Positions 1 to 43,169 of a stretch of DNA of 64,000 bases are shown here, one piece after another. Each line of letters opens with the position of its first letter. The first letter of the stretch is position 1. The position numbers were made by a program, and so were the translations under genes. Below the pieces are notes generated by a model. The model had not been told where the DNA came from. It saw only the letters and a program-made list of their open reading frames with translations, and ran no database searches. The stretch covers positions 510,318-574,317 of the forward strand of contig NZ_LT608315.1 of assembly GCF_900095825.1 (NCBI RefSeq). Reading direction: 5' to 3'. Source of the stretch: Acidaminococcus massiliensis (GTDB taxonomy: Bacteria; Bacillota; Negativicutes; Acidaminococcales; Acidaminococcaceae).

Positions 1-627
1 TGCCCAAACGAGGATATTGTACCCAAAAGTTCCCCAATACACCAGCTGCAGGAGGCAAATCGGCCACATGATTTTGGTCATATCAAAGACACCCATGCCG
101 GCTTCATAACCAGGGGTCCCCATCAACACTGCATTGGCTGCGACCTGAGAGACGGAACCTGTCAATGTCGCCCCACCGCCAATGATACAGGCAATCCCAG
201 CAGGCATAATGACCATCTTGGAACGGATTTTCCCTTTTGATCCGGCAGCAACGGCAGCAATGATGGGCATCCACATGGCGATACAGCCTGAATTGCTCAT
301 GAAGGCAGACATCAAGGTACAAATGGTTACAACCACAAGGATAAATACTTTTTCATTTTGGGCAATTTTATACTGGCAGATTTTGGCACCGATCCGCTGG
401 GCAATGCCTGTTTGGAACAGGGCATCGCCTACAATCATCATTCCGGCGACCATCACGATGGAACTCCCGCCAAAGCCGGAATAGATTTGTGAAAGTTTCA
501 TTTGCGGAATACAGATACCCATCGCCAGTGCACAACCGACGGCTGTGACACTCATAGGGAATTTCCCTACGAAGAAGAATACCATGGTAATCGCAGCAAT
601 GATAATTGCAACGGTACTGCTTGTCAT
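1..627 (-). CDS. SLC13/DASS-type anion permease, C-terminus outside window
   Basis: Translating the minus strand from an ATG at 625-627 gives an open frame of 209 codons that runs off the left edge with no stop. The product is a hydrophobic membrane protein with an N-terminal TM helix, a serine-rich re-entrant loop around SAFMSNSG (an SNT-like motif) and a glycine-rich GGGATLTGS stretch. These are hallmarks of the SLC13/DASS and ArsB/NhaD superfamily of sodium- or proton-coupled anion carriers. A GAGGGG ribosome site precedes the start. It is the last visible gene of the thiolase/dehydrogenase transcript, so I infer it imports the organic acid degraded by the neighbouring CoA enzymes. The substrate cannot be read from the sequence. 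Confidence 0.82.
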   Translation of the reverse strand, partial: MTSSTVAIIIAAITMVFFFVGKFPMSVTAVGCALAMGICIPQMKLSQIYSGFGGSSIVMVAGMMIVGDALFQTGIAQRIGAKICQYKIAQNEKVFILVVVTICTLMSAFMSNSGCIAMWMPIIAAVAAGSKGKIRSKMVIMPAGIACIIGGGATLTGSVSQVAANAVLMGTPGYEAGMGVFDMTKIMWPICLLQLVYWGTFGYNILVWA

Positions 628-684
628 TTTACTCACCCCTCGTTAAAATTTTCATGTATTTTGAATTTTTTGTATTTTATGTTT

Positions 685-729: not shown

Positions 730-1614
730 TCACTTTTTGCTGTAATCGTACCAGCCCTTACCAGTTTTACGGCCCAACTCCCCTTTCTTCACTTTTTCAA
801 TCACCAGCGGGTTCGGTGCATCTCTCTCGTCATGGCTCTCTGCATATCTATCTTTTCTCACCAGATAGTTGACATCAATTCCCGTCAGATCCATCAGACG
901 GAAAGGTCCCATGGGATAGTTCAGTCCATTTTCACAGGCAGTATCGATATCTTCCACAGAAGCAACGCCTTTTTGCAAAAGGTCAAGGGCCTCATAGGTA
1001 ACCGCTGCATTGATGCGGTTAGCCACAAACCCGGGGATTTCTTTCCGCAAGATGATAGGAGTTTTCCCCGTCTGGGCAGCAAAGGCTTTGGCTAGCTGAG
1101 CCGTTTCTTCACTAGTATGGGGTCCTTTGACCACTTCAACCAGCTTCATGACCAAAGCAGGATTGAAATAATGCATATTGCACAGTCTTTCCGGATTCTT
1201 GGTTACATCTGCCAATTTCGAACTAACGATGTTGGAAGAATTGGTAGCCAATAGAGCATCCGGCTTCGCAATCTGGCTTACATGGGCGAACAGATCTCGT
1301 TTGGCATCCAATTTTTCAATGATGGCTTCAATAATCACATCAGCTTCCGGCACATATTTATCCGTATCCAAAGATACCGTCCAGCGAGAAGCGATCGTAT
1401 CCGCTTCTTCCTGGGTGATCCTGCCTTTTTTTACACGGCCGGCCAGGTATTCCTTGGCCCAGGCAGTAGCACTTTCCACCGCTTTGGGAAAGCTGTCGCA
1501 CAAAGTGACGATGTACCCATACTTACGGCCATTCAATGCAGTGTTCATGGCAATCTGCCGTCCCATGGCACCGGCCCCAACTACAACCACCTTTTTAACA
1601 TCTTCTATTTTCAT
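730..1614 (-). CDS. hbd: 3-hydroxyacyl-CoA (3-hydroxybutyryl-CoA) dehydrogenase
   Basis: This soluble enzyme oxidises (S)-3-hydroxyacyl-CoA to 3-oxoacyl-CoA with NAD(P)+. The 294-residue protein has the N-terminal Rossmann motif GAGAMG at residues 13-18, the catalytic-region motif HYFNP and the C-terminal dimerisation domain, and matches the usual length of the family (about 280-295). The frame extends upstream, but the ATG at 1614 is chosen because GAGGAGGG lies just before it. It sits 26 bp downstream of the thiolase gene in the same transcript, matching their consecutive roles in beta-oxidation. Chain-length preference is not visible from sequence; C4 substrates are likely by similarity to Hbd proteins. 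Confidence 0.93.
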   Translation of the reverse strand: MKIEDVKKVVVVGAGAMGRQIAMNTALNGRKYGYIVTLCDSFPKAVESATAWAKEYLAGRVKKGRITQEEADTIASRWTVSLDTDKYVPEADVIIEAIIEKLDAKRDLFAHVSQIAKPDALLATNSSNIVSSKLADVTKNPERLCNMHYFNPALVMKLVEVVKGPHTSEETAQLAKAFAAQTGKTPIILRKEIPGFVANRINAAVTYEALDLLQKGVASVEDIDTACENGLNYPMGPFRLMDLTGIDVNYLVRKDRYAESHDERDAPNPLVIEKVKKGELGRKTGKGWYDYSKK

Positions 1615-1640
1615 ATCCAATCCCTCCTCTGGACTGTTTT

Positions 1641-2825
1641 TTAAACTCTTTCGATCATGGTTGCCATGGACTGGCCGCCGCCGATGCACAGCGTTGCGAG
1701 ACCGGTCTTGCCGCCCGTCCTGATCAAGTTATTCAGCAGAGTAACAATCAATCTGGCACCGGTGCATCCCAGCGGATGCCCCAGGGCAATGGCGCCTCCA
1801 TTGATATTCACCTTTGCAGGATCCAGTTTCAAATCTCTTACACAGGCTACCGCCTGAGAAGCAAAGGCTTCATTCAATTCCACCAGATCGATCTGATCCA
1901 CTGTCATATCCAGTTCTTTCAGCAGTTTCGTCGTAGAAATCACAGGACCATATCCCATGATTTCAGGATCCAGAGCAGCCCGTGCGATTCCCTTTATTTT
2001 AGCCAGAGGCTTCAGGCCGGTCTCTTTTACTTTGCTTTCACTCATCAAGACCAGAGCAGAAGCACCGTCATTCAAACCGCAGGCATTCCCAGCCGTTACA
2101 GTCCCTCCGGGTTTCACAATGGGTTTCAGTTTAGCCAAAATTTCCATTGTGGTTTTCGGTTTGATGAATTCATCTTCCGCAAAATCAAATTCCTGGTGTT
2201 TCAACTTCACATGGACAGGAACGATTTCATTTTTAAAGTACCCTTTTTCCCGTGCTTCCGTTGCCCGTTTTTGGCTTTCACAAGCAAAAGCATCCTGCAT
2301 TTCCCGGGTAATCCCGAAACGCTCTGCCACATTTTCTGCCGTCTGGGACATGCTCATCAGCCCATACAAAGAAGCCGGCTGGTCTGCCAATCCCCCTTCG
2401 ATATTGGAATCGACCAGTTTCATCGGGCCGTCGCCCCAACGGCCTTGGCGGATATACATAGGAGCCCGACTCATATTGTCCGTTCCGCCGGCAACTACGG
2501 TATCTGCCATCCCCAGCCAGATTTCTTCACATCCATTCAGCGTTGCCTGCATGGAAGATGCACACAGCCGGTTCACAGTATAGCCAGGGACGGTTTCCGG
2601 CATACCCGCTTCCAATGCCACATACCGTGCGATATTAGAAGCTTCGGAGCTTTGCCGAACCTCTCCCAGGATGACTTCATCCACCATATCTCCGGTAACA
2701 TGCGTCCGTTCCAGAACACTTTTCACAACCGTAGTGGCAAGAGTATGAGCAGGAATGCTTTTCAAAGATCCGCCATATTTCCCAATGGCAGTCCGGCAAC
2801 CGCCCATGATGTATACATTTTCCAT
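1641..2825 (-). CDS. Acetyl-CoA acetyltransferase-type thiolase
   Basis: This 394-residue protein cleaves or forms 3-oxoacyl-CoA using a Cys-His-Cys active site. Cys88 in NRLCAS is the acylated nucleophile. The GHPLGCTGA motif carries the catalytic His, and Cys380 in LCIGGG is the second cysteine. Length and motifs are those of degradative or biosynthetic thiolases (ThlA/PhaA/PaaJ group). It is the first gene of the leftward transcript, 54 bp downstream of a sigma-54 -24/-12 promoter. With the dehydrogenase and the divergent crotonase it completes a beta-oxidation set. The acyl chain released besides acetyl-CoA cannot be deduced. Confidence 0.94.
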   Translation of the reverse strand: MENVYIMGGCRTAIGKYGGSLKSIPAHTLATTVVKSVLERTHVTGDMVDEVILGEVRQSSEASNIARYVALEAGMPETVPGYTVNRLCASSMQATLNGCEEIWLGMADTVVAGGTDNMSRAPMYIRQGRWGDGPMKLVDSNIEGGLADQPASLYGLMSMSQTAENVAERFGITREMQDAFACESQKRATEAREKGYFKNEIVPVHVKLKHQEFDFAEDEFIKPKTTMEILAKLKPIVKPGGTVTAGNACGLNDGASALVLMSESKVKETGLKPLAKIKGIARAALDPEIMGYGPVISTTKLLKELDMTVDQIDLVELNEAFASQAVACVRDLKLDPAKVNINGGAIALGHPLGCTGARLIVTLLNNLIRTGGKTGLATLCIGGGQSMATMIERV

Positions 2826-2878
2826 AAAAACTCCTCCTTTATTCTCTTTTCAATAGAAATTCCTTTCAAAAAAGTATC

Positions 2879-2894
2879 TGCAAAAATTATGCCA
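2879..2894 (-). promoter_or_regulatory. Sigma-54 -24/-12 promoter for thiolase operon
   Basis: On the minus strand the sequence reads TTGGCATAATTTTTGCA, with GG and GC separated by exactly 10 nt. That is the invariant spacing of sigma-54 promoters, and the flanking TTGGCA and TTGCA also match consensus. It lies about 55 bp upstream of the thiolase start codon. Confidence 0.88.
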
Positions 2895-3014
2895 AAAAGA
2901 ATGAGTCTTTTGTCTCTTTCATGGAGTTTCTTTTTCTCACAAATTATATGGAATTTGAGGAATTCTTTCTGTCTGTTCGTTATTGATTTACCCATAAATG
3001 ATATATGTAAATTT

Positions 3015-3068
3015 TGCACTTTATCGTGCAATAAGTGCATATTTGTGCACTATATGCATTTATTGCAC
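3015..3068. promoter_or_regulatory. Dyad cluster, candidate activator-binding site (UAS)
   Basis: Overlapping inverted repeats are built from GTGCA/TGCAC. One pair is TGCAC-N6-GTGCA at 3015-3030. A second consists of 16-bp arms at 3026-3041 and 3053-3068 (GTGCAATAAGTGCATA against its near-complement), centred on a GTGCAC palindrome at 3045-3050. The cluster lies about 100-150 bp from both divergent sigma-54 promoters, the usual distance for an enhancer bound by a Fis-type HTH. The binding protein is inferred to be the activator encoded at 7808-9244. Confidence 0.68.
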
Positions 3069-3154
3069 TTGTTGTAATATTCTAATTTTTATTTCATTTT
3101 TCATTTTTATATTGTCCACTCCCTAAGCTTGTAAAAACAAACAGCTTTATTAAA

Positions 3155-3172
3155 TTGGCATGGATTTTGCAT
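3155..3172 (+). promoter_or_regulatory. Sigma-54 -24/-12 promoter for crotonase/dehydratase operon
   Basis: TTGGCATGGATTTTGCAT has GG at 3157-3158 and GC at 3169-3170, the strict 10-nt sigma-54 spacing with near-perfect flanks. The crotonase start codon is about 43 bp downstream of the -12 element. It mirrors the promoter at 2879-2894. Confidence 0.9.
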
Positions 3173-3214
3173 AATAAGAAAATAGACAAAGGAAAATTCT
3201 TCAAGGAGGCTGCT

Positions 3215-3997
3215 ATGGAACTGCATAATGTACTCTATGAAGTCAAAGAAAGCATATTGTATTTGACTTTGAATCGACCGGATGTGTATAACGCACTTTC
3301 TCCGGAAATGTGGAAAGATTTAAATACGGCGATTGACGCAGCACGTAACGATCCAGAAATCCGCGTCATTATCATTACAGGCGCTGGAGACAAAGCATTA
3401 GCCAGCGGTGCCGATATCAAAGAATTGCACAGCCGCTATTATATGGAACAGATGAAAGGAACGGCAACATTGGCCCTGCGGAATCTGGAAACCCTGTACA
3501 AGCCGGTCATCTGTGCCATCAACGGGTATGCATTGGGGGGCGGATGTGAATTGGCAGAAGCCTGTGACATCCGGATTGCAACGAAACGTTCTAAATTCGG
3601 TCAACCGGAAACAGGTCTTGGTATTATCCCCGGAGCCGGCGGGACCCAGCGTCTGGTACGGATTGTCGGCGTGGCAAAAGCCAAGGAACTGATCTTTACA
3701 GGAAAAATCATCCCAGCAGAAGAGGCTGAAAAAATAGGCCTGGTCAACCAGGTTACAGAAGATTCCCGTGAAGCTTTGATGGAAGCTGCAACAGCCATGG
3801 CAAAACAGATTGTGAAAAAAGGTCCTGTTGCTTTGAGCATGGCAAAGATTTCCATCACCTATGGCCAGGATTCCTCCATTGAAACTGGATTGATGATGGA
3901 AAGACTGGCACAGACCATTGCTCTGAGCACAGAAGACCGTAAAGAAGGAACAGGAGCTTTCATTGAAAAAAGGAAGCCGGTATTTACCGGTCGTTAA
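3215..3997 (+). CDS. Enoyl-CoA hydratase (crotonase family)
   Basis: This enzyme hydrates trans-2-enoyl-CoA to (S)-3-hydroxyacyl-CoA. The 260-residue protein has the oxyanion-hole stretch ASGADIKEL and GGGCELAE. Both catalytic glutamates of true hydratases are present, Glu112 (in CELAE) and Glu132 (in QPETGLG), which argues against an isomerase-only or dehalogenase member. The ATG at 3215 follows AAGGAGG; the longer frame starting at 3155 would overlap the sigma-54 promoter and is rejected. It is the first gene of the rightward operon, followed after 25 bp by a CoA-transferase. In this context it would hydrate the product of the 2-hydroxyacyl-CoA dehydratase. Confidence 0.93.
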   Translation: MELHNVLYEVKESILYLTLNRPDVYNALSPEMWKDLNTAIDAARNDPEIRVIIITGAGDKALASGADIKELHSRYYMEQMKGTATLALRNLETLYKPVICAINGYALGGGCELAEACDIRIATKRSKFGQPETGLGIIPGAGGTQRLVRIVGVAKAKELIFTGKIIPAEEAEKIGLVNQVTEDSREALMEAATAMAKQIVKKGPVALSMAKISITYGQDSSIETGLMMERLAQTIALSTEDRKEGTGAFIEKRKPVFTGR

Positions 3998-4022: not shown

Positions 4023-5225
4023 ATGAAACCTTTGGAAGGAATTAAAGTCATCGAAATGTCCACCATGCTTGCCGGTCCTATGTGTGCCCGGATTCTGGCT
4101 GAATGGGGTGCAGATGTAATCAAGGTCGAAACGGTGCATGGTGACGCCTGGCGCAAACAGGGTGGAACGACCATGTCCCCTACCACTGACGTAGCCAACC
4201 CCAACTTCGATATGCAGAATATGAATAAACGATTTATTTCTCTTAATCTGAGGTCCCAAGCCGGTAAAGATGTCATGATGAAGCTGTTAAAAGATGCAGA
4301 TGTCCTTGTCACGAACTTCCGGGAATCTGCATTGGAAGGCATGGGTCTTGCTTATGATCAGTTAAAAGAAAAATTTCCTCGCCTCATCCATGCCGGTGTC
4401 CTTGGATATGGTGAAAAAGGTCCTGATGCCAATAAACCCGGTTATGACTACACTGCATATTTTGCCAGATCCGGCTTGATGATTGATCTGGCTCCCAAAG
4501 GTGCTGGTCCGTTGATTCCTGTGGGCGGCATCGGGGACCACAGTGTGTCCGTCGCTCTGGCAGGCGGGATTGCGGCCGCACTGTACGAACGGGAACGTAC
4601 TGGCAAAGGAGACAAAGTGGATGTATCTCTGCTGCAATGTGCCACTTTCATTCTTTCCACCGGTATCCTCAATGGTGTCAATGGACGTGAACTTCCCAGA
4701 GACCGTTATGACTGCGGCCATGCCTGCAGCAACAACTACCAAGGATCTGACGGTGAATGGTTCTATCTGGCAGTCATTGACTACCGCCGGTTTAAAGAAT
4801 TTGTCACTTTGATTGGTCTGCCTGAGCTGGCGGATGACCCTCGTTTCAATACCCAGCCGGCATATTATAAAAACAAAGCAGAACTGACCCGAATCTTTGA
4901 CAAAAAATTTGCGGAACATCCTGTGGCTTATTGGCACAAATTACTGGAAGAACATGATATGCCTCATGAAGTCCTGCGTCATTTCAAAGACGTTCCTGAC
5001 GATCCTCAAATCATTGCGAACAATTACGGATTCAAATACACTTATCCGGATGGCATCAAGACCTTCCTGACAAATGGTCCTGTCCATTTTGCATCCATAG
5101 ATCCTGCCAAGATCCCCTTCAAGCCTTCTCAGCATCTGGGCCACGATACCCGTCCCGTGTTGGAAGAGCTGGGATATTCTGATGAAGAAATCAATAACAT
5201 GTACACAAATGGTGAAATCAAATAA
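4023..5225 (+). CDS. Class III (CaiB/BaiF) CoA-transferase
   Basis: This 400-residue family III CoA-transferase moves CoA between carboxylic acids through an aspartyl-CoA anhydride. The predicted catalytic residue is Asp172 in GGIGDHSVS, and the N-terminal GPMCARILAEWGADVIKVE pattern is typical. Length matches HadA, FldA and CaiB (about 400). It lies between the crotonase and the dehydratase subunits with short gaps (25 and 17 bp). Family knowledge (HadA-HadBC, FldA-FldBC) makes it the enzyme that activates the 2-hydroxy acid, with the product acyl-CoA or acetyl-CoA as donor. The exact acid is unknown. Confidence 0.92.
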   Translation: MKPLEGIKVIEMSTMLAGPMCARILAEWGADVIKVETVHGDAWRKQGGTTMSPTTDVANPNFDMQNMNKRFISLNLRSQAGKDVMMKLLKDADVLVTNFRESALEGMGLAYDQLKEKFPRLIHAGVLGYGEKGPDANKPGYDYTAYFARSGLMIDLAPKGAGPLIPVGGIGDHSVSVALAGGIAAALYERERTGKGDKVDVSLLQCATFILSTGILNGVNGRELPRDRYDCGHACSNNYQGSDGEWFYLAVIDYRRFKEFVTLIGLPELADDPRFNTQPAYYKNKAELTRIFDKKFAEHPVAYWHKLLEEHDMPHEVLRHFKDVPDDPQIIANNYGFKYTYPDGIKTFLTNGPVHFASIDPAKIPFKPSQHLGHDTRPVLEELGYSDEEINNMYTNGEIK

Positions 5226-5242
5226 AGGAGGCTGATTTCATT

Positions 5243-6550
5243 ATGCCAGAAACAATGAATGCTGCTACTGCCACTGCAACGGGAGCCGCACCCAGCAAGC
5301 CAAAACGGCCGAAAGCCAAATCCATGCTGATGCTGGGTGAACAAACCAACGATTTGTATGAACGTGCCCGCAAAGCCAAAGAAGCAGGAGAAAAGGTTGG
5401 CTGGTCCGCTTCTATTTTCCCCCAGGAAATCGCGGAAACGCTGGGTCTGGTTGTCTTGTATCCTGAAAACCATTCGGCCGGGATTGCTGCCCGGCACCAG
5501 GCTGACCCCTTCCTCCAGGAATGCGAGGGTCCTCTGGGATATAATAATGACCTGTGTGCCTACGCAAAAGTCAATCTTGCCTATGCTTCCACACTGGAAG
5601 GCAAAAGCCACGTAGAACTGCCTGATGGAGGTAAGATGGTCAAACCAGATTTTCTTCTGTTGACCAATAACATCTGTACCCAGCTGACCAAATGGTATGA
5701 AAATCTGGCTTATTCCATGAAAATCCCTGTCTTTTTCATTGATACCTGTTATAACCCCTGGGACCATGTGACAGAAAGCCGAGTCCGTTACGTCCGTTCT
5801 CAAATCGATGCACTGATTGAAAATCTATGTAAATTCACTGGTAAGAAATGGGACGAAGAACGGTTCAAGAAAATCATGAAAATCAGCCAGCGAAACAGCT
5901 ATCTCTGGGAACGTGCCAACAATTTAATGGATCATATTCCTTCTCCCTTAAGCGGTTTTGAGCTGTTCAACTATATGTCCTGTATGGTATGTCACCGTGG
6001 CAGAGAATCTACCACAGCCATTCTGGAACAATTAAACAAAGAAATCGAGCAGCATTTAAAAGATGGGACTTCCACCTATCCTGTCAAAGAACAGTATCGT
6101 GTTTCCTGGGACGGCATTGCCTGCTGGCCTTATTTGAAGCACAACCTGCATACCCTGAAACAATACGGGATCAACATGGTAGCTTCCAGTTATGGGAAAG
6201 CCTGGGCCATTGAGTATGAAGACCTGGACGGGATGGCACGCGCTTACTGCTTTGCTTCCACCAACGGGGACAACGCCAGCACCATGATCCATCGCCGTCT
6301 GGAAGCTTTGAAGCGTTTTCATTGCGAAGGAACCATCTATCATGTGAACCGCAGCTGCAAAGTGATGGACTGTCAAATGATGGAAGTCCAGCGGCAGCTG
6401 GCTAAACTGGCCGGTGTTCCTTTCACTGCCTTTGATGGTGATCAGGCAGATTACCGGAACTACAGTGAAGCGCAATTCGAAACACGGATCCAGGGCCTGG
6501 TGGAAATCATGCAGGAAAATAAAGAAAAAAAGGCAGAGGAGGCTAAATGA
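5243..6550 (+). CDS. 2-hydroxyacyl-CoA dehydratase, alpha subunit
   Basis: This is one half of the oxygen-sensitive iron-sulfur dehydratase that removes water from (R)-2-hydroxyacyl-CoA by a ketyl-radical mechanism. The 435-residue protein resembles HgdA: GEKVGWSAS near residues 50-57, then three cysteines in conserved settings, Cys105 (NNDLC), Cys145 (TNNIC) and Cys372 (NRSCK), the likely cluster ligands. The extreme N-terminus is Ala/Thr-rich and low complexity. An AGGAGG site precedes the ATG. The beta subunit starts 1 nt after its stop. No activator ATPase (HgdC/HadI type) is encoded nearby, so activation must come from a gene elsewhere. Confidence 0.92.
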   Translation: MPETMNAATATATGAAPSKPKRPKAKSMLMLGEQTNDLYERARKAKEAGEKVGWSASIFPQEIAETLGLVVLYPENHSAGIAARHQADPFLQECEGPLGYNNDLCAYAKVNLAYASTLEGKSHVELPDGGKMVKPDFLLLTNNICTQLTKWYENLAYSMKIPVFFIDTCYNPWDHVTESRVRYVRSQIDALIENLCKFTGKKWDEERFKKIMKISQRNSYLWERANNLMDHIPSPLSGFELFNYMSCMVCHRGRESTTAILEQLNKEIEQHLKDGTSTYPVKEQYRVSWDGIACWPYLKHNLHTLKQYGINMVASSYGKAWAIEYEDLDGMARAYCFASTNGDNASTMIHRRLEALKRFHCEGTIYHVNRSCKVMDCQMMEVQRQLAKLAGVPFTAFDGDQADYRNYSEAQFETRIQGLVEIMQENKEKKAEEAK

Positions 6551-6551
6551 A

Positions 6552-7679
6552 ATGTCCGAATTACAGGAAAAACTAAAACAGCTGGAAACTGCCTGTACAC
6601 ATCCTCGTCAACAATTGGACGCCTATTTAAAGGCAGGGAAGAAGGTCATTGGCTGCTTCCCTGAATTCACACCCGAGGAACTGGTACACGCCAGTGGGAT
6701 CATCCCTATGGGATTATGGGGTGGAAACATCACCCCTTCGCTTGCGAAAAGTTATCTGCCTCCATTTGCCTGTCCGCTCATGCAGTCAAACATGGAATTT
6801 GGTCTAAAAGGAACCTATAAAGGGCTTTCGGCAGCCATTATCCCTACCCTGTGTGATACTCTCCGCTGCATGACCCAAGACTGGCGGTTCGGCGTGACTT
6901 CCATTCCCATGATTCCCATTGTCTACCCCCAAAACAGGACTGCCCCTGCTGCGGTTGATTATCTGGTAGATGAATTTGAGACCGTCCTGACCATCATTGC
7001 TACCGTTACCGGAGAAATGATGACGGAACAGGCTCTTTGTGACACGATTCAGATTTACAACGAACACAATGCTATAATGCGTGAATTTGCAAAGACTGCC
7101 AACAATCATCTGGATATCATTACACCAAAAGTCCGCCACTACGTGATGAAAAGCTCCTATTTCTTTGAAAAAGCAGAACATACGGCCATTGTAAAAGAAA
7201 TCATAGACGAGCTGAATCAACTGCCGGCTTATCAATATACCGGAAAACGGATTTTACTGACAGGAGTTACCTGTGAACCGGATGAAGTGCTGGATTTATT
7301 CAAAGAAAATGAAATGGCCGTAGTATATGATGACTTGATGCAGGAATCCCAGCAATTCCGCACGGATACTCCCCTGCACGGCGGTGGCGGCATCAAACGT
7401 CTGGCACTGCAATGGATGGATCGTTATGGCTGCAGCCTGCTCCATGAAGACGGCAAACCCAGAGGAGCCATGCTGATCAAGATGTGTAAAGAAAACCAGG
7501 TCGACGGAGTCATCAACTGTATGATGAAGTTCTGTGATCCAGAAGAATATGATCAGCCTTATTTGGAGAAAGATCTGCAGGGAGCCGGCATTCCCGTTAC
7601 CGATCTTTCCATTGATCAGCAGAAAGACAGTATCGAACAGCTTCGTACCAGGATTGAAGCCTTCAGAGAAATGCTCTAG
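6552..7679 (+). CDS. 2-hydroxyacyl-CoA dehydratase, beta subunit
   Basis: This 375-residue partner of the alpha subunit is HgdB/FldC-like. It has the PEELVHASGIIPMGLWGG signature near residues 41-58, Cys74 (FACPL), Cys101 (TLCDTLR), the VYPQNR motif and C-terminal MMKFCDPEEY (Cys328). The start at 6552 is preferred because GAGGAGG ends about 10 nt before it and the gene is translationally coupled to the alpha stop; the frame extends upstream inside the alpha gene and that part is rejected. The subunits usually carry one [4Fe-4S] cluster each or share them. It is the last gene of the operon before a strong terminator. Confidence 0.92.
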   Translation: MSELQEKLKQLETACTHPRQQLDAYLKAGKKVIGCFPEFTPEELVHASGIIPMGLWGGNITPSLAKSYLPPFACPLMQSNMEFGLKGTYKGLSAAIIPTLCDTLRCMTQDWRFGVTSIPMIPIVYPQNRTAPAAVDYLVDEFETVLTIIATVTGEMMTEQALCDTIQIYNEHNAIMREFAKTANNHLDIITPKVRHYVMKSSYFFEKAEHTAIVKEIIDELNQLPAYQYTGKRILLTGVTCEPDEVLDLFKENEMAVVYDDLMQESQQFRTDTPLHGGGGIKRLALQWMDRYGCSLLHEDGKPRGAMLIKMCKENQVDGVINCMMKFCDPEEYDQPYLEKDLQGAGIPVTDLSIDQQKDSIEQLRTRIEAFREML

Positions 7680-7694
7680 TTATTTCAATAGTGA

Positions 7695-7733
7695 GAGGGT
7701 GTTGCCCGTTTTGTGCAGCACCCTCCTTTTTAT
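7695..7733 (+). terminator. Intrinsic terminator of the dehydratase operon
   Basis: GAGGGTGTTGC (7695-7705) pairs with GCAGCACCCTC (7715-7725) with one G-T pair, followed by CTTTTTATTT. It belongs to the stem family found repeatedly in this window. Confidence 0.85.
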
Positions 7734-7746
7734 TTCTTTCTCAGCT

Positions 7747-7775
7747 TATACAGTGTGCTTTTTTTATGCTATAAT
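7747..7775 (+). promoter_or_regulatory. Sigma-70-type promoter of the activator gene
   Basis: TATAAT at 7770-7775 is a consensus -10 element. TATACA lies 17 nt upstream as a weak -35. The activator would therefore be made independently of the sigma-54 promoters it controls. Confidence 0.55.
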
Positions 7776-7807: not shown

Positions 7808-9244
7808 ATGTTCAATCCATTTGAAGAATTACAAAAGCACCTGTCAATTGTTGATATCCTTGATAATATCGATGCCGGAATCGTAATCTATGATGCCAGG
7901 GGAAACTTTGTCTTTATGAACACCATGATGGTCAATTGGCGGAATATTCCCCGTGATGAATATCTGAAGATGAACGTCCATGATTTTACGAATGTCTTAG
8001 ATGTCTGCGTCTTTGATCTGGTATTGCAAAACAAAAAGAGGGTTTCCCGACTGCAAAATTATCGCGACTATCAAAATGTAAGCAGCGAAATCCGATTGCG
8101 GATGGTTACAGGCACACCGATCTTTGATGACTCCGGAAATATCAGATATGTGGTCATGCTGATGCAGGATATCCAGGATTTTGAACACCAGTACCATACT
8201 TTGCTCAAAAGCCACGCCATCCTCAATAACGGGTTATCAGGAGGACGCGAAAGCAAAACTGGAATGGTGGCAAAAAGCAAAGAAATCCTTCGGCTATTAT
8301 CAGTCACCGATAATATCTCCGTGCTTGACTCCACCGTATTGCTTTATGGAGAGTCAGGATGTGGGAAGGAAGTTTTTGCCCATTATATCCATGAACATTC
8401 AAACCGAAAAGATGCTCCCATGATTACGGTAAACTGTGCAGCCTTTCCAAAAGATTTGATTGAAGCAGAATTGTTTGGCTATGAAAAGGGCAGCTTCACA
8501 GGAGCCAATAAAGAAGGGAAAAAGGGACTGGCCGAGGCGGCCAATCATGGGACCCTGTTTTTAGACGAAATCAATTCATTACCCCTTTCCGTCCAAGGAA
8601 AAGTGCTGCGCATGATTGAAGAAAAACGGATCCGTCCCATCGGATCGGTTCAGTCCAAACAAGTTGATTTTCGGCTCCTTGCGGCCACCAATCGAGATCT
8701 TCGAAAAATGGTCGAACTGGGAACATTCCGGGAAGATCTATACTATCGCCTGAATGTAATTCCCCTCATGATTCCGCCGCTGCGCAACCACCGTGATGAT
8801 ATTATCCCCTTATGTTTGCATTTCTTGTATCATTTCTGTCAAAAATATAATTTGCGAAAATCTTTTTCAAAAAAGGTCTTAAATGAACTTTACCAATACA
8901 ATTGGCCTGGGAATATCCGGGAATTAAAAAATTTTGTAGAAAGGATTGTCGTCATGACGCCTTCCTCAACAAAAGAAATATTGGAAATTCCCCACGGTTT
9001 ATTGGGCGATGTTTTTTCGTCCTTGCCGTCATCTGATTCCAACCATGAACCAATGACTCCACCTCCAGTGACCATGCCGACCTATTTCCCGCGAAAATTG
9101 GGCAGACAGGAAATTCTCGATGCTCTTTCCATCTGTGGGGGAAACCGTGAAAAATCAGCGGCCTATCTTGGCATTTCCCGTCGCCAATTACAATATAAAA
9201 TAAAGCTCTATCATCTCTCAAACAGATGTGTTTATAATGAATAA
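7808..9244 (+). CDS. Sigma-54-dependent activator with PAS sensor, AAA+ and Fis HTH
   Basis: This 478-residue enhancer-binding protein has three parts: an N-terminal PAS-like sensor (about residues 15-125), a central AAA+ ATPase and a C-terminal Fis-type helix-turn-helix (about 445-475, GGNREKSAAYLGISRRQLQ). The ATPase has Walker A GESGCGKE near residue 181, GSFTGA near 228 for contact with sigma-54, and Walker B LFLDEI near 251. GGAGG lies about 9 nt before the ATG. It is encoded directly after the dehydratase operon, and both divergent promoters at 2.9-3.2 kb are sigma-54 type, so it is very probably their activator, triggered by a small ligand or redox state sensed by PAS. There is no receiver domain, hence no partner kinase is expected. 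Confidence 0.93.
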   Translation: MFNPFEELQKHLSIVDILDNIDAGIVIYDARGNFVFMNTMMVNWRNIPRDEYLKMNVHDFTNVLDVCVFDLVLQNKKRVSRLQNYRDYQNVSSEIRLRMVTGTPIFDDSGNIRYVVMLMQDIQDFEHQYHTLLKSHAILNNGLSGGRESKTGMVAKSKEILRLLSVTDNISVLDSTVLLYGESGCGKEVFAHYIHEHSNRKDAPMITVNCAAFPKDLIEAELFGYEKGSFTGANKEGKKGLAEAANHGTLFLDEINSLPLSVQGKVLRMIEEKRIRPIGSVQSKQVDFRLLAATNRDLRKMVELGTFREDLYYRLNVIPLMIPPLRNHRDDIIPLCLHFLYHFCQKYNLRKSFSKKVLNELYQYNWPGNIRELKNFVERIVVMTPSSTKEILEIPHGLLGDVFSSLPSSDSNHEPMTPPPVTMPTYFPRKLGRQEILDALSICGGNREKSAAYLGISRRQLQYKIKLYHLSNRCVYNE

Positions 9245-9249
9245 TAAAA

Positions 9250-9288
9250 ATACCCTGCAGGGACTCTCCAATAGTCCCTGCAGGGTAT
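9250..9288. terminator. Bidirectional terminator between convergent genes
   Basis: Perfect 16-bp arms (ATACCCTGCAGGGACT and its complement) with a 7-nt loop are flanked by an A-run on the left and a T-run on the right. It can end both the activator gene and the converging AbgT gene. Confidence 0.92.
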
Positions 9289-9299
9289 TTTTATTATTG

Positions 9300-10886
9300 T
9301 TAAAGCAAAGCAGAATAGCCAGGTCCCACCGGTAAGCCTGCCATCACCCAAACTACCAGGAATGCAATCCAGACAACGCCTGTAATCAGCGTATAAGGAA
9401 GCATGTAAGCCATGACGGTACCAACTCTGGCCCGCGGTTCATAAATTTGAGCATATCCCAAAATAGCTGCCAGATAAGGAAATACCGGTGCAATATTATT
9501 AGTCAATCCATCTCCCATTCGATATGCTACCTGGATAGCCGCCGGATTGATTCCAGCAATCATCATCATGGGAACAAACATCGTAGAAATCAATGCCCAT
9601 TTCCCAGATGCTCCCGTCATAAACAAATTGATGAAGCTTGCCATCACAACGAAGCCAGCCAATAAAAGTGCTTTTGGCAGCCCTAGATGAACCAGGAAAT
9701 CACCGCCCCAGATTGCTATAATGGTTGCGATGTTACTTTTTCCAAAAACTGCAATGAATTGAGAAGCAAAGAGACAGACCATGATAAATCCAGAAAGACC
9801 CTTTATTTCTTCAGTGATCATAGGTATGGTGTCCCCAAATTTCTTAATGGTGCCCACTGTCTTTCCGTATACATAACCGGGCAAGAAGAACATGAACATA
9901 ATCAGAGTCGGGATGCATTTGAACAATTTCCCCGTCGTTATGCTTCCTCCTTTAGGAGCCGCAAAAGGCATCCCCGGCAGGCACATAAGGGCTACTGCAG
10001 CAAAGAACAGAATCAGCATCAGTAAAGCACGTTTCATCCCCGTTTTTTGAAGGTCACTCAATGCTTCATTTTCGATATCTTCCGTTTCATTTGATTGTCC
10101 CATTCCCATCCCGGTCTTTGCCAGCCGAGGTTCTATCACGTAGATGCTCACAGCAGCGCAAACAATCGTAACAACAAAAGTTGAAGCAAACAAATAATAC
10201 CAGCCCATGGCAGCATTGGCGACAAAATTCGCATCGACAATGACTGCTGCAGCCTGCGTGAGCCCTGCCAGCGAAGCGTCAGCTGACCCAATGAGCAGAT
10301 TTGCCCCAAACCCCACAGAAACACTGGCATATCCTAAAAACAAGCCGGCGAGTGGATTGCGATGGACACTTTTAAAAAGCATGGCCACCAGGGGCGGAAA
10401 AATGAGGAAAGCGGCATCCCCTACCAGGTTGGCATTGACTCCAATAAAAGATACTATCAGCGCAACACTCCAGATTCCCTCACAGTGTCCTGTAAGACGC
10501 AGACCTGCTTCCAACAGCCCAGTTCTGCTTGCAATGGCAAGTCCTACCGTGCATACGGGAACCGTCAGCAAGGGAGCAAAATTCATCCATCTTTTATTGA
10601 TATTCTGCAGAAAGTCTGCCGTATTCGCTGACGTGAACAGATTGATTACAGAAACGGTCTTCCCAGTAACGGGATTCACCGCAGAAACCCCCATGGTGCT
10701 CATAATAAATGAAGCAATATAGGTAATAACGAACAATCCCATAAACATAAATGCAGGACCAGGGATTTTATTGCCAAGTTTTTCCACCAGTCCATAGAAT
10801 CCCGTCATCTGGCACTCTTCGTTTTTCACATCGATCACCGCAGTGCCCATACTTTGATTTGTTTTAATGGTTCCTGTTGCCGCCAT
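9300..10886 (-). CDS. AbgT-family aminobenzoyl-glutamate/peptide carrier (copy 1)
   Basis: This integral membrane carrier of about 528 residues has around 11-13 hydrophobic segments. It is recognised as AbgT by the N-terminal VEKLGNKIPGPAFMFMGLF-type start, the conserved VNPVTGKTV loop, GLAIASRTGL and the C-terminal GDGLTNNIAPVFPYLA motif. AbgT proteins import p-aminobenzoyl-glutamate or export antifolates, using an ion gradient. The ATG at 10886 fits GAGGGGAG at 9-nt spacing better than the ATG three codons upstream. It follows an M20 amidohydrolase by 55 bp in one operon, the AbgA/AbgB-AbgT arrangement, so import plus hydrolysis of an N-acyl amino acid is inferred. Confidence 0.9.
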   Translation of the reverse strand: MAATGTIKTNQSMGTAVIDVKNEECQMTGFYGLVEKLGNKIPGPAFMFMGLFVITYIASFIMSTMGVSAVNPVTGKTVSVINLFTSANTADFLQNINKRWMNFAPLLTVPVCTVGLAIASRTGLLEAGLRLTGHCEGIWSVALIVSFIGVNANLVGDAAFLIFPPLVAMLFKSVHRNPLAGLFLGYASVSVGFGANLLIGSADASLAGLTQAAAVIVDANFVANAAMGWYYLFASTFVVTIVCAAVSIYVIEPRLAKTGMGMGQSNETEDIENEALSDLQKTGMKRALLMLILFFAAVALMCLPGMPFAAPKGGSITTGKLFKCIPTLIMFMFFLPGYVYGKTVGTIKKFGDTIPMITEEIKGLSGFIMVCLFASQFIAVFGKSNIATIIAIWGGDFLVHLGLPKALLLAGFVVMASFINLFMTGASGKWALISTMFVPMMMIAGINPAAIQVAYRMGDGLTNNIAPVFPYLAAILGYAQIYEPRARVGTVMAYMLPYTLITGVVWIAFLVVWVMAGLPVGPGYSALL

Positions 10887-10941
10887 TTCAGCCATCTCCC
10901 CTCAAAATCAAACCAAGATCCTTCACCCTTACAGTACTTTT

Positions 10942-12114
10942 TTACTGGGCAAGATATTGTTGAACAACTGCAATATATGCAGCCATACCTATAACCATGC
11001 TGTTCTCATCGATATTAAAATTACAGGAATGCAGCGATTCCTTCATTTCCTCATTTCCTGTTCCCAGGAAGAAGAATACAGAAGGTTTCTCCTGGGCATA
11101 ATAAGCAAAAGAATCACACCCCATAAATGCATGAGGCAATCTGCCCACATTTTCCATCCCGATAACTTCTCCTGCTGCCTGATTAAAAAACTCTGTCAAC
11201 TGCGGATTGGAATACAATGCGGGATTGCTTTTCTGCCGTTCCAGTTCATAGCTTCCACCAAATGCAGCAGTGATTCCTGCTAAGAGTCCCTTGATTCTCT
11301 GGTTTAAGAATTCTCTCGTCTCCCCATTCAGGCTCCGTATAATTCCATTGATCACGACTTCATCACAGACTATATTTCTCGCCGTACCTCCCTGTATTGT
11401 GCCAAAGGTAATGATAGCTGACTGAAAAGCATCTTTTTCTCTCGCCATCATCGTTTGGACTGCAAGGATGAAATGACAGGCCATCGTCATCGCATCAATT
11501 CCCAGATGTGGCATGGCGCCATGGGCAGACTTCCCCATGATTTTAATGATCAGTCGGTCAGAAGCAGCCTCCATTTCTCCTGGACACGTATATACAGTCC
11601 CTACCGGAAATCGATTTTCGCAATGCATTCCCACCACTGCATCCGCATCGTCCAGTACCCCGTTCTTTATCATAAACTGGGCACCGCCAATATCTTCTTC
11701 TGCCGGTTCAAACATGAGTTTGACATTGCCCTGCAATTCTGACTGATGTTTGACCAATATAGCGGCCGTTTCCATGAGAGTGGCACAATGACAGTCATGT
11801 CCACACGCATGCATGACACCGGGAACTGTAGATTTATAAGGGATATCATTTTTCTCTGTAATATGCAGTGCATCCATATCCGCCCGCAAAGCAATGGTCC
11901 TCCTTTTTTGGGCACCAGGAATGACAGCCACCACACTGGGCAAATCTCCGCCGTACGTTATCTGTACCTGCAGACCTAAATCCTCTAAATATTTCTTGAT
12001 GTAAGCTGCTGTTTGAAATTCATGCTTACTCGGTTCAGGATGCATATGAAAGTAACGCCGAAGTTGAATGGCTTGCTGCAAATGTGCTTTTGCTTCTCCT
12101 AGACAATCAATCAT
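10942..12114 (-). CDS. M20D-family amidohydrolase (N-acyl amino acid / AbgA-like)
   Basis: This cytosolic metal-dependent amidase of 390 residues has the N-terminal RRYFHMHPEPS motif, metal-binding ACGHDCH, and EPAEED carrying the catalytic acid. The lid/dimerisation domain includes SAHGAMPHLGIDA. The layout and length are those of hippurate hydrolase, IAA-amino acid hydrolase and AbgA enzymes. TTGGAGGC precedes the ATG. Co-transcription with an AbgT carrier suggests it cleaves an imported N-acyl or aminobenzoyl amino acid, releasing glutamate or another fermentable amino acid. It is the promoter-proximal gene and has a GTTC...CGAAC dyad about 50 bp upstream. Confidence 0.92.
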   Translation of the reverse strand: MIDCLGEAKAHLQQAIQLRRYFHMHPEPSKHEFQTAAYIKKYLEDLGLQVQITYGGDLPSVVAVIPGAQKRRTIALRADMDALHITEKNDIPYKSTVPGVMHACGHDCHCATLMETAAILVKHQSELQGNVKLMFEPAEEDIGGAQFMIKNGVLDDADAVVGMHCENRFPVGTVYTCPGEMEAASDRLIIKIMGKSAHGAMPHLGIDAMTMACHFILAVQTMMAREKDAFQSAIITFGTIQGGTARNIVCDEVVINGIIRSLNGETREFLNQRIKGLLAGITAAFGGSYELERQKSNPALYSNPQLTEFFNQAAGEVIGMENVGRLPHAFMGCDSFAYYAQEKPSVFFFLGTGNEEMKESLHSCNFNIDENSMVIGMAAYIAVVQQYLAQ

Positions 12115-12160
12115 ATTTGCGCCTCCAAATACGAATTATTTTTTATTTATGCATTTAATA

Positions 12161-12179
12161 GTTCTTGTTAATATCGAAC
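12161..12179. promoter_or_regulatory. 19-bp dyad, candidate operator upstream of M20/AbgT operon
   Basis: GTTCTTGTTAATATCGAAC has the same length and ends as the dyad at 15666-15684 in front of the second AbgT operon. The surrounding 220-bp intergenic region (12115-12334) is AT-rich and otherwise shows no gene or clear terminator. Confidence 0.5.
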
Positions 12180-12334
12180 TTTATTAAAGTATAGTACAAT
12201 AATAATCGTTTTTAATCGTGTTCACGCTTTTTTCACATTTCCTTGTGTTGATTCATGAAAGTTGTAACCATTTTTATAAATCCGAATCAAATCACCCCTC
12301 ATAGACCAAATCATGACAGTAATTGTGACTCACC

Positions 12335-13927
12335 TCAATAAAATGAATCACCTTTACCATGTCTCAATAATTTACCCTCCATAACACCTTGAAAAACGTC
12401 ATCTTTCACCACACATTTTCCTCCTATCCAAACATATACAATTCCCTGTCCTCTCTTTTTCGAATCAGTAAACGTTGCCAAATCTTTTATAGTTTCTGGA
12501 TTGAACAAAACCAAATCGGCATCCATCCCGATCCGGATCAGTCCTTTTGTCTGCAGGCCATAAACCTGAGCAGGCAGAGATGTCATTTTCCGAACGGCAT
12601 CTTCCCATTTAAGGATTTTCTTCTCTCGGACATACTCGCCAAGGACCCGGAGGAACGTCCCAAAAGCACGGGGATGGACTCCTGCGCACCCTTTATAATA
12701 CAATCCATCAGAGCCGATCATGGTCCTGGGATAACGCATGATCCGTTCCACATCCTCATCCTGCATACAGAAATAAATTCCATTGGTTGTCAAATGATCA
12801 TCGCATAGGACATCCATAACCAGCTCACAGGGATCTTTTTGAAGGTCACGGGCCACGTCAAGGACCATCTTTCCCGTATATTCAGGGTGTGCAGGAGAAG
12901 CACCAAACATCGTTGTCCCGAATCGCTGTTCCGGGTTCATACCAGCCAGGATTGCATTCTGCATCATGCTTCTCTGTTCTGGATCTGACATCAGAGAAAT
13001 CAGCTGATTTTCCCCCAAACTATGCAAATGCTGCGGAATCCGGGATTTCAGGCCAGTCGAAGAAGCTGTGTAGGGATATTGATCACAGTACACATTGCAT
13101 CCCCTTTGATTGGCCTGTTCTATCAGGGAAAGGGTCTTTTGAGATTTTCCCCAATTAGGCTGATTAATGGCTTTATGATGCGAAATGACCAGCTTACAAT
13201 GGCTGGATCTGGCGACCTGGATCATTTTCTGATCCGCTTCCAGCAAATGGTTTCCCTCATCCCTGACATGAGCGGCTATGACACCATCGTATTTGGCTGC
13301 TACAGACGATAAATGGACCATCTCTTCAGTTGATGCATAAGCACCTGGAGGATACTGCAGCCCATAAGAAATCCCCAACGCTCCCGCCTCCATACATTGG
13401 TGCAGCGTCTCTTCCATTTTTTGTAATTCCACCGAGGTAGGTTCTCTGTCATCCATGCCCATGACAAAAGCCCGCAGTGTCCCATGGCCTACCATCAGGA
13501 CATAATTATTCCCTGCCGGGATATGTTCCAGATGATCCAGGTATTGTTGATAATCAAACCGGCATCCGGCCGATTGCAGAAAATCACAATCCACTACTGT
13601 GGCAGCGATCTCCAGGGCACTATCCAGATGAGTTTCAGAAAAAGGAGCTGCCGATATGCCGCACATTCCCTCAATCTGGGTAGTGACACCTTGCTCCACT
13701 TCCTGAAAAAAAGAAGGATCCAATTCAAACATCATGTCCCCGTGACTGTGTGAATCAATAAATCCAGGGCATAAGGTCAGTCCATCCGCATCGCAAGTTT
13801 CTCTGGCAAGGCCAAGGTCATTGCCTATGCCAACGATTTTCCCATCCTGTACCGCCACATCTCCCCAAAAAGAAGGACTTCCCGTGCCATCAATGATCCG
13901 TGCACGCTTGATCAAAATATCGTACAT
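12335..13927 (-). CDS. N-acyl-D-amino-acid deacylase (D-aminoacylase)
   Basis: This amidohydrolase-superfamily enzyme of 530 residues hydrolyses N-acyl-D-amino acids or N-acyl-D-glutamate. It has the HxH metal motif in GFIDSHSHGD, a metal-bridging Cys in the EGMCG stretch typical of D-aminoacylases, HVRDEGNH and VISHHKA. The C-terminal AFGTFLRVLGEYVRE and GMDADLVLFNPE segments are also standard. The ATG at 13927 gives the usual MYDILI start; a TTG eight codons upstream is possible. It lies downstream of the second AbgT carrier beyond a terminator-like hairpin, so read-through expression is likely. Together they would import and deacylate N-acyl-D-amino acids, for example from cell-wall turnover or processed food peptides. 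Confidence 0.92.
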   Translation of the reverse strand: MYDILIKRARIIDGTGSPSFWGDVAVQDGKIVGIGNDLGLARETCDADGLTLCPGFIDSHSHGDMMFELDPSFFQEVEQGVTTQIEGMCGISAAPFSETHLDSALEIAATVVDCDFLQSAGCRFDYQQYLDHLEHIPAGNNYVLMVGHGTLRAFVMGMDDREPTSVELQKMEETLHQCMEAGALGISYGLQYPPGAYASTEEMVHLSSVAAKYDGVIAAHVRDEGNHLLEADQKMIQVARSSHCKLVISHHKAINQPNWGKSQKTLSLIEQANQRGCNVYCDQYPYTASSTGLKSRIPQHLHSLGENQLISLMSDPEQRSMMQNAILAGMNPEQRFGTTMFGASPAHPEYTGKMVLDVARDLQKDPCELVMDVLCDDHLTTNGIYFCMQDEDVERIMRYPRTMIGSDGLYYKGCAGVHPRAFGTFLRVLGEYVREKKILKWEDAVRKMTSLPAQVYGLQTKGLIRIGMDADLVLFNPETIKDLATFTDSKKRGQGIVYVWIGGKCVVKDDVFQGVMEGKLLRHGKGDSFY

Positions 13928-13976
13928 TCTGTTCCGCCGCCTTTCCTCCAACCAACAAGGTTCTCACTAATGAAAA

Positions 13977-14019
13977 ATACAGGAATGGAACCTCCGATCC
14001 CGGACTTCCACTCCTGTAT
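13977..14019 (-). terminator. Attenuating hairpin between AbgT copy 2 and D-aminoacylase
   Basis: Arms ATACAGGAATGGAA (13977-13990) and TTCCACTCCTGTAT (14006-14019) match at 13 of 14 positions. On the minus strand they are followed by TTTTT. Placed just after the AbgT stop, it would lower expression of the downstream deacylase. Confidence 0.75.
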
Positions 14020-14024
14020 GCAGA

Positions 14025-15566
14025 TTAAAATTGAGCGTTATAAATTGCCGGATATCCAGGACCCATGGGAATATCAAGAGCGATCCAAATCATCAGGAAT
14101 ACAATCCATACAAAGGTGCAGATCAGTGTATAAGGCAGCTGATAGGCAATGACGGTTCCTGTCTTGGCACGAGGATCATATTGCTGGGCATATCCAAGCA
14201 ATATTGCCAAATAGGCCAAAGTAGGCGTTATATTGTTAGTTACACCATCTCCCATCCGATAGGCAGCTTGAGCCGTGGCTGGATTGACTCCGGCAATCAT
14301 CAGCATGGGTACAAACACAGATGAAATCAGCGCCCACTTTCCATTGGCAGATCCCATGAATAAATTCAAAAAAGCAATAAGGATGACAAAAATGCCTGCA
14401 AGGGCCCACGCAGGAAGTCCTAATCCTTTTAACCATCCGCCGCATATTACGGCGATTACAGTGGCAATTTTACTGGCGCCAAAAATGGAAATGAATTGGG
14501 ATGCAACGAAGCAAACCAGGAAGAAGCTGGCCAATGTACTCAGTTCCTTGGTCATCATAGGAATCGTATCACCAAAATTTTTAATTGTCCCGGCAACTTT
14601 CCCAAAAGCATATCCGGAAACAAAAAACAGCACAAAAATAATGGTCGGAATACATTTCCACAAATATCCAGTCATGATACTGCCATTTTTAGGTGCTTGA
14701 AAAGGCATACCTGGCAAGCAAAGAAGACCGCAAACGGCAATGACACCGACCATGCCCAACAGCCCCGCCCTCATGGCTTTCTTTTCCTGTGCCGTCAATT
14801 CGAATTTATCTTCGTTTACGGGTTTGATATATGCTGTTCCTAAATTTTCACGATTCAGCCGAGGTTCGACGACTTTTAAATTGACCCAGGCACACATGAA
14901 TGTCATCACGAAGGTTGATACAAACATGAAATACCAGGACATGACCGGCGTTGCGATAAAATTTGGATCCAAGGTCTGGGCAGCGGCTTCCGTCATGGCC
15001 GCCAAGGATGCATCGGCAGAGCCTGGTAAAAGATTGGCCCCAAATCCGATGGACACAGATCCATAGGCCAGAAACAGTCCGGCAAGGGGATTCCGATTGG
15101 TGGCAATGAACAGCATGGCCACCAGAGGCGGAAAGACGATAAAGGCAGCATCTCCTGCCAGATTGGCCATGACACCAATGAATGCTACAACAAGACACAT
15201 TTTCCAATCACTTTTTGTAGCGCCAGCACTTTTTAGCATAGCGTTCATCATCCCGCTATGGGTCGATACAGCCATGCCCAAGGTACACAAGGGCACCGTC
15301 AGCATAGGAGCAAACGTCATCCACGTTTTCCCCATATTTCTTAAAAATTCAGCCCATTTTTGAGAAGTCATCATATTCACAACTGTTACTGTTTTGCCAT
15401 TTGAAGGATTAATGACAGAAATCCCAAGAGAGGACATGATCCACGATGCAGCCAGTGCCAATATCCATAGACAGATAAATAAATAGACTGGATGAGGAAT
15501 TTTATTCCCCACTTTTTCAATAAAAGAAAAAAATCCACCGTTCTTTTCTGCAGCTTGGCCGTCCAT
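14025..15566 (-). CDS. AbgT-family carrier (copy 2)
   Basis: This is a second AbgT membrane carrier (513 residues), clearly paralogous to the one at 9300-10886. It shares FIEKVGNKIPHPVYLF at the N-terminus, INPSNGKTV, GDAAFIVFPPLVAMLF and GDGVTNNITPTLAYLA near the C-terminus. The ATG at 15566 follows GGGAAGGGG; the longer frame to 15608 has no ribosome site. It is the first gene of a transcript that continues into the D-aminoacylase. Pairing each AbgT copy with a different amidase family suggests the two carriers handle different N-substituted amino acids. Confidence 0.9.
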   Translation of the reverse strand: MDGQAAEKNGGFFSFIEKVGNKIPHPVYLFICLWILALAASWIMSSLGISVINPSNGKTVTVVNMMTSQKWAEFLRNMGKTWMTFAPMLTVPLCTLGMAVSTHSGMMNAMLKSAGATKSDWKMCLVVAFIGVMANLAGDAAFIVFPPLVAMLFIATNRNPLAGLFLAYGSVSIGFGANLLPGSADASLAAMTEAAAQTLDPNFIATPVMSWYFMFVSTFVMTFMCAWVNLKVVEPRLNRENLGTAYIKPVNEDKFELTAQEKKAMRAGLLGMVGVIAVCGLLCLPGMPFQAPKNGSIMTGYLWKCIPTIIFVLFFVSGYAFGKVAGTIKNFGDTIPMMTKELSTLASFFLVCFVASQFISIFGASKIATVIAVICGGWLKGLGLPAWALAGIFVILIAFLNLFMGSANGKWALISSVFVPMLMIAGVNPATAQAAYRMGDGVTNNITPTLAYLAILLGYAQQYDPRAKTGTVIAYQLPYTLICTFVWIVFLMIWIALDIPMGPGYPAIYNAQF

Positions 15567-15665
15567 AAATACCCCTTCCCTAATTTGTCTTTCGTCTAAC
15601 CTATACATACCAAAACATAATTATTTAGTTTTTGTATGTATAATATTATCATTTTATATTATAAC

Positions 15666-39746: not shown

Positions 39747-40592
39747 TTATGCTGCCAGCAAAGAAAGCCTGTATTGAACAGGACTTTTCCAGCCCAGTTT
39801 TTCCTTGATCCTTTGTTCGTTATAGTATTTGATGTATCGTTCGATAGCGGCTTTTAGTTCTTCGTAGCTGTAGTAGATCACTCCATAATACATTTCCTGT
39901 TTCATTAAGCCGAAAAAGTTTTCCATTACAGCGTTATCATGACAGTTACCCTTTCGAGACATGCTCTGAAAAATTCGTTCTTTTTTTAGTTTCCTGGTAT
40001 AGGCCTTCATTTGGTATGCCCAGCCCTGATCGGAGTGAAACGTTCTTCGATATGGACAATCAGCAGTAATTTCGATTGCTTCAGCTTGAGCTTCCAGTAT
40101 GCTTTCAGCCGAAGGACGTTTGGCTATTCCATAGCTGATGATTTCATCATCGAACATGTCCAGGAAAGGATCCAGATAAAGCTTGTGCAGGGTCAGATGT
40201 CCCTGTGTATCTACTTCATAATATTTGAATTCTGAAGTATCGGTCGTAATCTTCTGATGTGGGATATTCGTCTCAAAACGACGATGTATTCTATTCGGAG
40301 CAATGGTCCCTACCTTACCCTTATAGGAACTGTATTTACGGCTTTTCCGGGTAAAGGATGTTACCTGAAGGCTCAGTTTCTGCATGATACGTTGAACTTT
40401 CTTCTTGTTCACGCAAATCCCTTGATTCTTCAGCTCACCGGTCATGCGCCGATATCCATAATCTTTATGCTGGCTGCGGATTTCCTGTATTTTGTCCTCT
40501 ACTTCCTGGTCTGGATTCACGCGGTCAAACCGTTTCTGCCAGTACATATAGGTCGCTTTGGGCATTTGAGTATAGGAGAGAAGGTCTTTCAA
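39747..40592 (-). CDS. IS3-family transposase OrfB (rve/DDE domain)
   Basis: This is the catalytic part of the transposase (281 residues from a TTG). It has an HTH_21-like region (YGYRRMTGEL) and an RNase H-fold with Asp in TTDTSEF, Asp in HSDQGW and Glu in NAVMENFFGLMKQE. All three metal ligands are present. The frame is open upstream of 40592 and continues in the -1 frame relative to OrfA back to a T TTT TTA heptamer at 40679-40685, so the active product is probably an OrfAB fusion made by -1 frameshifting. Confidence 0.93.
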   Translation of the reverse strand: MKDLLSYTQMPKATYMYWQKRFDRVNPDQEVEDKIQEIRSQHKDYGYRRMTGELKNQGICVNKKKVQRIMQKLSLQVTSFTRKSRKYSSYKGKVGTIAPNRIHRRFETNIPHQKITTDTSEFKYYEVDTQGHLTLHKLYLDPFLDMFDDEIISYGIAKRPSAESILEAQAEAIEITADCPYRRTFHSDQGWAYQMKAYTRKLKKERIFQSMSRKGNCHDNAVMENFFGLMKQEMYYGVIYYSYEELKAAIERYIKYYNEQRIKEKLGWKSPVQYRLSLLAA

Positions 40593-43130: not shown

Positions 43131-43169
43131 AATGAGAGAGGGCCTCCTTTCTTCCATAGTTTTTGTATA

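Follow-up and report, generated by a model that had tools for sequence, protein, structure and literature searches.

A candidate bidirectional sigma-54 control region with a shared TGCA array between thl and crt of Acidaminococcus massiliensis

The intergenic region at positions 2826-3214 of the window, the 64,000-nucleotide stretch of Acidaminococcus massiliensis DNA analysed here, is very likely a bidirectional sigma-54 control region. A shared array of TGCA cores would be bound by the activator encoded at 7808-9244, which would fire both outward-facing promoters of the region and a third promoter left of the window. The region (389 bp) fits exactly between the start codons of the divergent thl and crt genes. 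Features of the locus are listed in Table 1.

Table 1. Features of the thl-crt locus and the rpoN gene, in window coordinates unless stated otherwise.
Feature	Position	Strand	Basis or remark
CitMHS-type transporter gene, N-terminal part	1-636	-	third gene of the left operon; whole gene G000:C4:509613-510953; PF03600 matches its C-terminal part
hbd, 3-hydroxyacyl-CoA dehydrogenase	730-1629	-	PF02737/PF00725
thl, acetyl-CoA acyltransferase (thiolase)	1641-2825	-	PF00108/PF02803; TIGR01930 above cut-off
sigma-54 -24/-12 element TTGGCATAATTTTTGCA	2879-2895	-	predicted promoter of thl-hbd-CitMHS transporter; exact consensus; counterpart in 8/8 homologous loci
candidate activator-site array	3014-3068		six TGCA cores, dyad and inverted repeat
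sigma-54 -24/-12 element TTGGCATGGATTTTGCA	3155-3171	+	predicted promoter of crt-caiB-hadBC; exact consensus; counterpart in 8/8 homologous loci
crt, enoyl-CoA hydratase	3215-3997	+	PF00378; ATG at 3215 preceded by AAGGAGG
caiB, family III CoA-transferase	4023-5225	+	PF02515
hadB-like 2-hydroxyacyl-CoA dehydratase subunit	5243-6550	+	PF06050; best NCBIfam match HadB, sub-cut-off
hadC-like 2-hydroxyacyl-CoA dehydratase subunit	6546-7679	+	PF06050; best NCBIfam match HadC, sub-cut-off
intrinsic terminator closing the crt-caiB-hadBC operon	7695-7735	+	fold -21.2 kcal/mol, z -4.9, then T run
sigma-70-type promoter with extended -10 (TATACA-17-TATAAT), activator gene	7747-7775	+	consensus match only, 10/12
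PAS-AAA+-Fis (HTH_8) enhancer-binding protein, proposed activator	7808-9244	+	PAS, AAA+ sigma-54 interaction and HTH_8 domains; GSFTGA loop
rpoN	41793-43181	-	AID, CBD and DBD present; sole sigma-54 gene found in the genome

Divergent promoters and the array between them

The sequence-only reading had placed two outward-facing sigma-54 elements with exact GG-N10-GC spacing in this region, and both were confirmed. TTGGCATAATTTTTGCA and TTGGCATGGATTTTGCA agree with the Clostridiales consensus TTGGCATNNNNNTTGCT except at the final base (PMC6615313). In each, the -24 GG and the -12 GC are separated by 10 bases in a sequence near the consensus TTGGCATNNNNNTTGCW, and the genome carries rpoN. Across the 2.67 Mb genome there are seven exact matches to TGGCAYNNWNNTTGCW; of these, two fall in the 389-bp region, another lies 865 bp to the left of where the window begins, and two are close to genes for other sigma-54 activators. 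Among 20,000 dinucleotide shuffles of the region, 39 contained a strict element and not one contained a divergent strict pair. Near rpoN, two minus-strand ORFs at 39747-41167 resemble an IS3-type transposase pair by eye.

A dense set of GTGCA/TGCAC dyads, claimed earlier to be centred at about 3047, was indeed found there, and the shared array is established as anatomy. Its six TGCA cores lie at 3015, 3027, 3036, 3046, 3055 and 3064. The steps between them (12, 9, 10, 9 and 9 bp) are near one helical turn, and the cores therefore point to much the same face of the helix. The array contains a TTGCAC-N6-GTGCAA dyad at 3014-3031 and a 17-nt inverted repeat (3026-3042/3052-3068, 94%) centred at 3047, which exceeds the length found in all 300 shuffles. 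GTGCA/TGCAC occurs six times in the region compared with 0.51 expected, a count reached in 0 of 2000 shuffles; all six copies fall within 54 bp, and elsewhere in the 64-kb window the count in any 60 bp reaches two at most. A pattern of three TGCA cores with 8-13 bp steps has 21 matches genome-wide; four of them overlap at the array, and any other single spot has at most two. This is the longest such array found in the genome. The array is 103-185 bp from the promoters, inside the 100-250 bp usual for Clostridiales (PMC6615313).

These elements suggest the following mechanism. RNA polymerase-sigma-54 would wait in a closed state on the two promoters. The activator, presumably expressed from its own housekeeping promoter, would bind the array, and its PAS domain would sense a ligand, probably intracellular, upon which the protein would oligomerise. 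The oligomer would then loop over approximately 100-185 bp in either direction and open both promoters, so that thl-hbd-transporter and crt-caiB-hadBC would be switched on together in an RpoN-dependent manner; the same activator would also fire the third promoter.

Conservation in Clostridia and assignment of the activator

Because searches of the genus, family and class found the activator in the window genome only, relatives were sought in Clostridia. Eight homologous loci have thl-hbd divergent from the crt operon with the same order of elements: L041 (genome G300), L083 (G304), L084 (G301, Pseudoflavonifractor phocaeensis), L093 (G472), L095 (G665), L100 (G911), L103 (G743) and L105 (G842). 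The L041 contig ends before hbd is reached, and a run of N separates the promoters of this locus. All eight bear an outward -24/-12 element on each side with GTGCA/TGCAC repeats between, and the thl-side element of L084 has ATGCT at -12. The intergenic cores of the nine loci form five blastn groups (the window; L084; L095; L100 with L105; L041 with L083, L093 and L103), and the core of the window has no blastn match to the other eight at E<=1e-3. When 5-mers were counted without bias in five representative cores and two further regions, GTGCA/TGCAC ranked first of 463 (40 copies versus 5.2 expected, z 14, present in 7/7 regions), with AGTGCA/TGCACT as the top 6-mer. This comparison, with the layout retained in eight loci whose spacers have diverged, supports the earlier proposal that two sigma-54 promoters stand back to back and share one activator platform, as do the tracking of the motif with orthologues of the 7808-9244 protein and its absence from the other sigma-54 promoters tested in these genomes.

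The arrangement of the repeats varies. They are dispersed at 263-388 bp from the crt-side promoter in L083, L093 and L103, and lie 377-668 bp from it in L084, so that a compact array is not universal. Instead of a single platform, the array could comprise two or three separate dimer sites that each act on the promoter closer to them, in which case the operons would be co-regulated but separately fired. The GTGCA sites of L083, L093 and L103 fall into groups approximately 85 bp apart, and each promoter of the Desulfovibrio orp operons has an EBP site of its own (PMC3897727), both of which favour independent sites. However, the six cores of the window are 9-12 bp apart over 54 bp, with the 17-nt inverted repeat spanning most of the array, and the array of L100 lies equally far from its two promoters (204-253 bp in each case). 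We consider independent sites unlikely, while giving them appreciable weight.

The product of 7808-9244 has the features of a one-component PAS bacterial enhancer-binding protein, with an AAA+ domain bearing a GAFTGA-type loop, a Fis HTH and an N-terminal PAS domain; GSFTGA is an accepted variant of the loop (PMC6615313). Its best NCBIfam match is PrdR (NF041552), with which it shares the PAS-AAA-Fis architecture, but membership was rejected (362 bits versus a cut-off of 795). Co-transcription of the activator with hadBC is not favoured, with the strong terminator and the sigma-70-like extended -10 promoter intervening; a promoter of this type fits a constitutively made sensor, as would be expected. 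Downstream of the activator gene, a strong bidirectional terminator hairpin (9246-9292; 20 pairs, T runs both ways) separates it from abgT.

The array is assigned to the 7808-9244 protein mainly because motif and activator co-occur, an assignment that sequence comparison suggests. The GTGCA motif accompanies the orthologue in every examined locus with an orthologue of at least 59% identity. In G301, the activator gene lies approximately 15 kb from thl-crt, yet it too has a sigma-54 element upstream, together with a GTGCA array (P 0.0005). In L043, whose activator is 45% identical, GTGCA sites precede both the activator gene and a second sigma-54 promoter. Other sigma-54 promoters in G300, G302, G303 and G304, two other divergent pairs included, have 0-1 GTGCA copies upstream, and two further ones of the window genome have 0 and 1. 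This pattern bears on whether the array is the operator of another regulator, such as another EBP, an NtrC-like protein or a repressor, with the 7808-9244 protein acting elsewhere. The NtrC site is TGCACC-N5-GGTGCA. The TGCAC-N6-GTGCA dyad resembles it, and the genome encodes four other typical enhancer-binding proteins, but their recognition helices differ from that of the 7808-9244 product. Set against the constant company of motif and orthologue, the array adjoining the displaced gene in G301 and the other promoters without the motif, a different regulator is improbable. Accidental sigma-54-like matches in AT-rich DNA with sigma-70 promoters used instead can be dismissed almost entirely: sigma-70-like matches are present (3 found, 2.7 expected), but the shuffles of promoter pair, GTGCA count and inverted repeat, together with conservation in eight further loci, reject chance.

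Related layouts with other motifs were also observed. In a Lachnospiraceae locus, L042, whose activator is 56% identical, the divergent sigma-54 pair at 7839-8251 comes with TGCAGA dyads in place of GTGCA, and the HTH of this activator (10001-11404) reads SVRKLQYKI versus SRRQLQYKI, a possible shift in specificity. Divergent sigma-54 pairs approximately 300 bp apart and without GTGCA repeats occur at L086:7956-8311, with TTGCA/TGCAA dyads, and at L085:6477-6817; the layout is therefore seen again in these Lachnospiraceae under different activators.

Regulated genes and origin of the locus

The third predicted sigma-54 promoter, TGGCATGATTTTTGCT, lies at G000:C4:509438-509453 on the minus strand, outside the window and 865 bp beyond its left end. 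Ahead of it is an inverted repeat, ATAAAGTGCAAATGCGCAA/TTGCACATTTGCACTTTAT, which carries GTGCA (19 nt, 95%) and is longer than in 300 shuffles; the array of this promoter is at G000:C4:509542-509595, and its GTGCA count is weak by itself (P 0.027). Because of this promoter and its GTGCA repeat, the regulon probably exceeds two promoters. Downstream are genes for a Na+/H+-antiporter-family protein (NhaC), an alanine racemase, two mandelate-racemase/enolase-superfamily proteins, an aminotransferase and a D-2-hydroxyacid dehydrogenase.

The protein families together suggest a pathway. The aminotransferase and 2-hydroxyacid dehydrogenase would convert an amino acid to an (R)-2-hydroxy acid, CaiB would form its CoA thioester, the HadBC-like dehydratase would yield the enoyl-CoA, and the crt, hbd and thl products would complete beta-oxidation to acetyl-CoA. 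Assignment to the HadBC (R)-2-hydroxyisocaproyl-CoA dehydratase (NF052455/NF052456) was rejected at 468 versus 750 and 471 versus 700 bits; by these scores the proteins are a related dehydratase with another or unassigned substrate. In relatives, an acyl-CoA dehydratase activase gene (TIGR00241, hadI type) lies between caiB and hadB (L100:13741-14541), and one also precedes hadB in L039 (L039:1-735). In the window, no activase gene is present between caiB and hadB, which are separated by 17 bases (5226-5242). A stand-alone HgdC-like activase gene at G000:C4:920521, beside glutaconyl-CoA decarboxylase- and HgdA-like genes, suggests that the dehydratase activase is supplied in trans. Beyond the activator gene, at 9300-15608 on the minus strand, two AbgT-type transporter genes flank genes for an M20 peptidase and an amidohydrolase (D-aminoacylase-like by eye), possibly for N-acyl amino acid uptake; no sigma-54 element was found in this stretch.

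The control region and its genes were probably acquired horizontally, because the activator is absent from the class sample and nothing in the family closely resembles the dehydratase. At E<=1e-80 none of the 58 other family genomes contained the activator, nor at E<=1e-110 did any of the 299 other class genomes sampled, and HadB has a single family match with 46% identity, compared with 80-85% in the Clostridia loci. The GC content of the locus is 45.9%, versus 53.0% for window positions 20,001-64,000. No tRNA integration site was found near the locus; the only tRNA gene in the window is approximately 45 kb away. Tentatively, and at somewhat less than even confidence, the whole cassette of two sigma-54 promoters, shared array, activator and pathway may have moved from an Oscillospirales-like to an Acidaminococcus-like bacterium, where it would have lost its own activase, would use the RpoN and dehydratase activase of the recipient, and would control the flanking operon via the second GTGCA array.

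Relation to known systems and significance

Control of divergent sigma-54 operons by one EBP is known from orp1/orp2 of Desulfovibrio vulgaris, where DVU2106 is the cognate EBP and its sites lie in the promoter regions between the two operons (PMC3897727). That system differs in its cell-division-related genes, an EBP site for each promoter, the requirement for IHF, and a sigma-70 promoter and the EBP gene within the orp cluster. For the divergent T3SS operons of the same species, a common motif was predicted for the EBP DVUA0100 (PMC4641369), but their function is unrelated and the EBP gene lies inside one operon. Closer still are the clostridial regulons in which PAS-EBPs control had, crt, hbd and thl genes (PMC6615313); these share PAS-AAA-Fis activators, the same consensus, UAS mostly 100-250 bp upstream, and fermentation or amino-acid genes belonging to the same families. 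Among the groups set out in the main text of that study, none has thl-hbd divergent from crt-caiB-hadBC, and no GTGCA motif is printed there; literature searches turned up nothing closer to this exact regulon. The general mechanism is thus known, and the proposed switch, though well supported by sequence, is largely of textbook type.

Activators with a GTGCA half-site apparently represent an undescribed sigma-54 group, whose regulon in gut anaerobes would connect the dehydration of 2-hydroxyacyl-CoA with beta-oxidation. The enhancer is compact, and its layout is kept while the surrounding sequence diverges; it offers a test case for one enhancer serving two opposite promoters, and the locus may likewise serve as a test case for the survival of a sigma-54 circuit on transfer between distant lineages.
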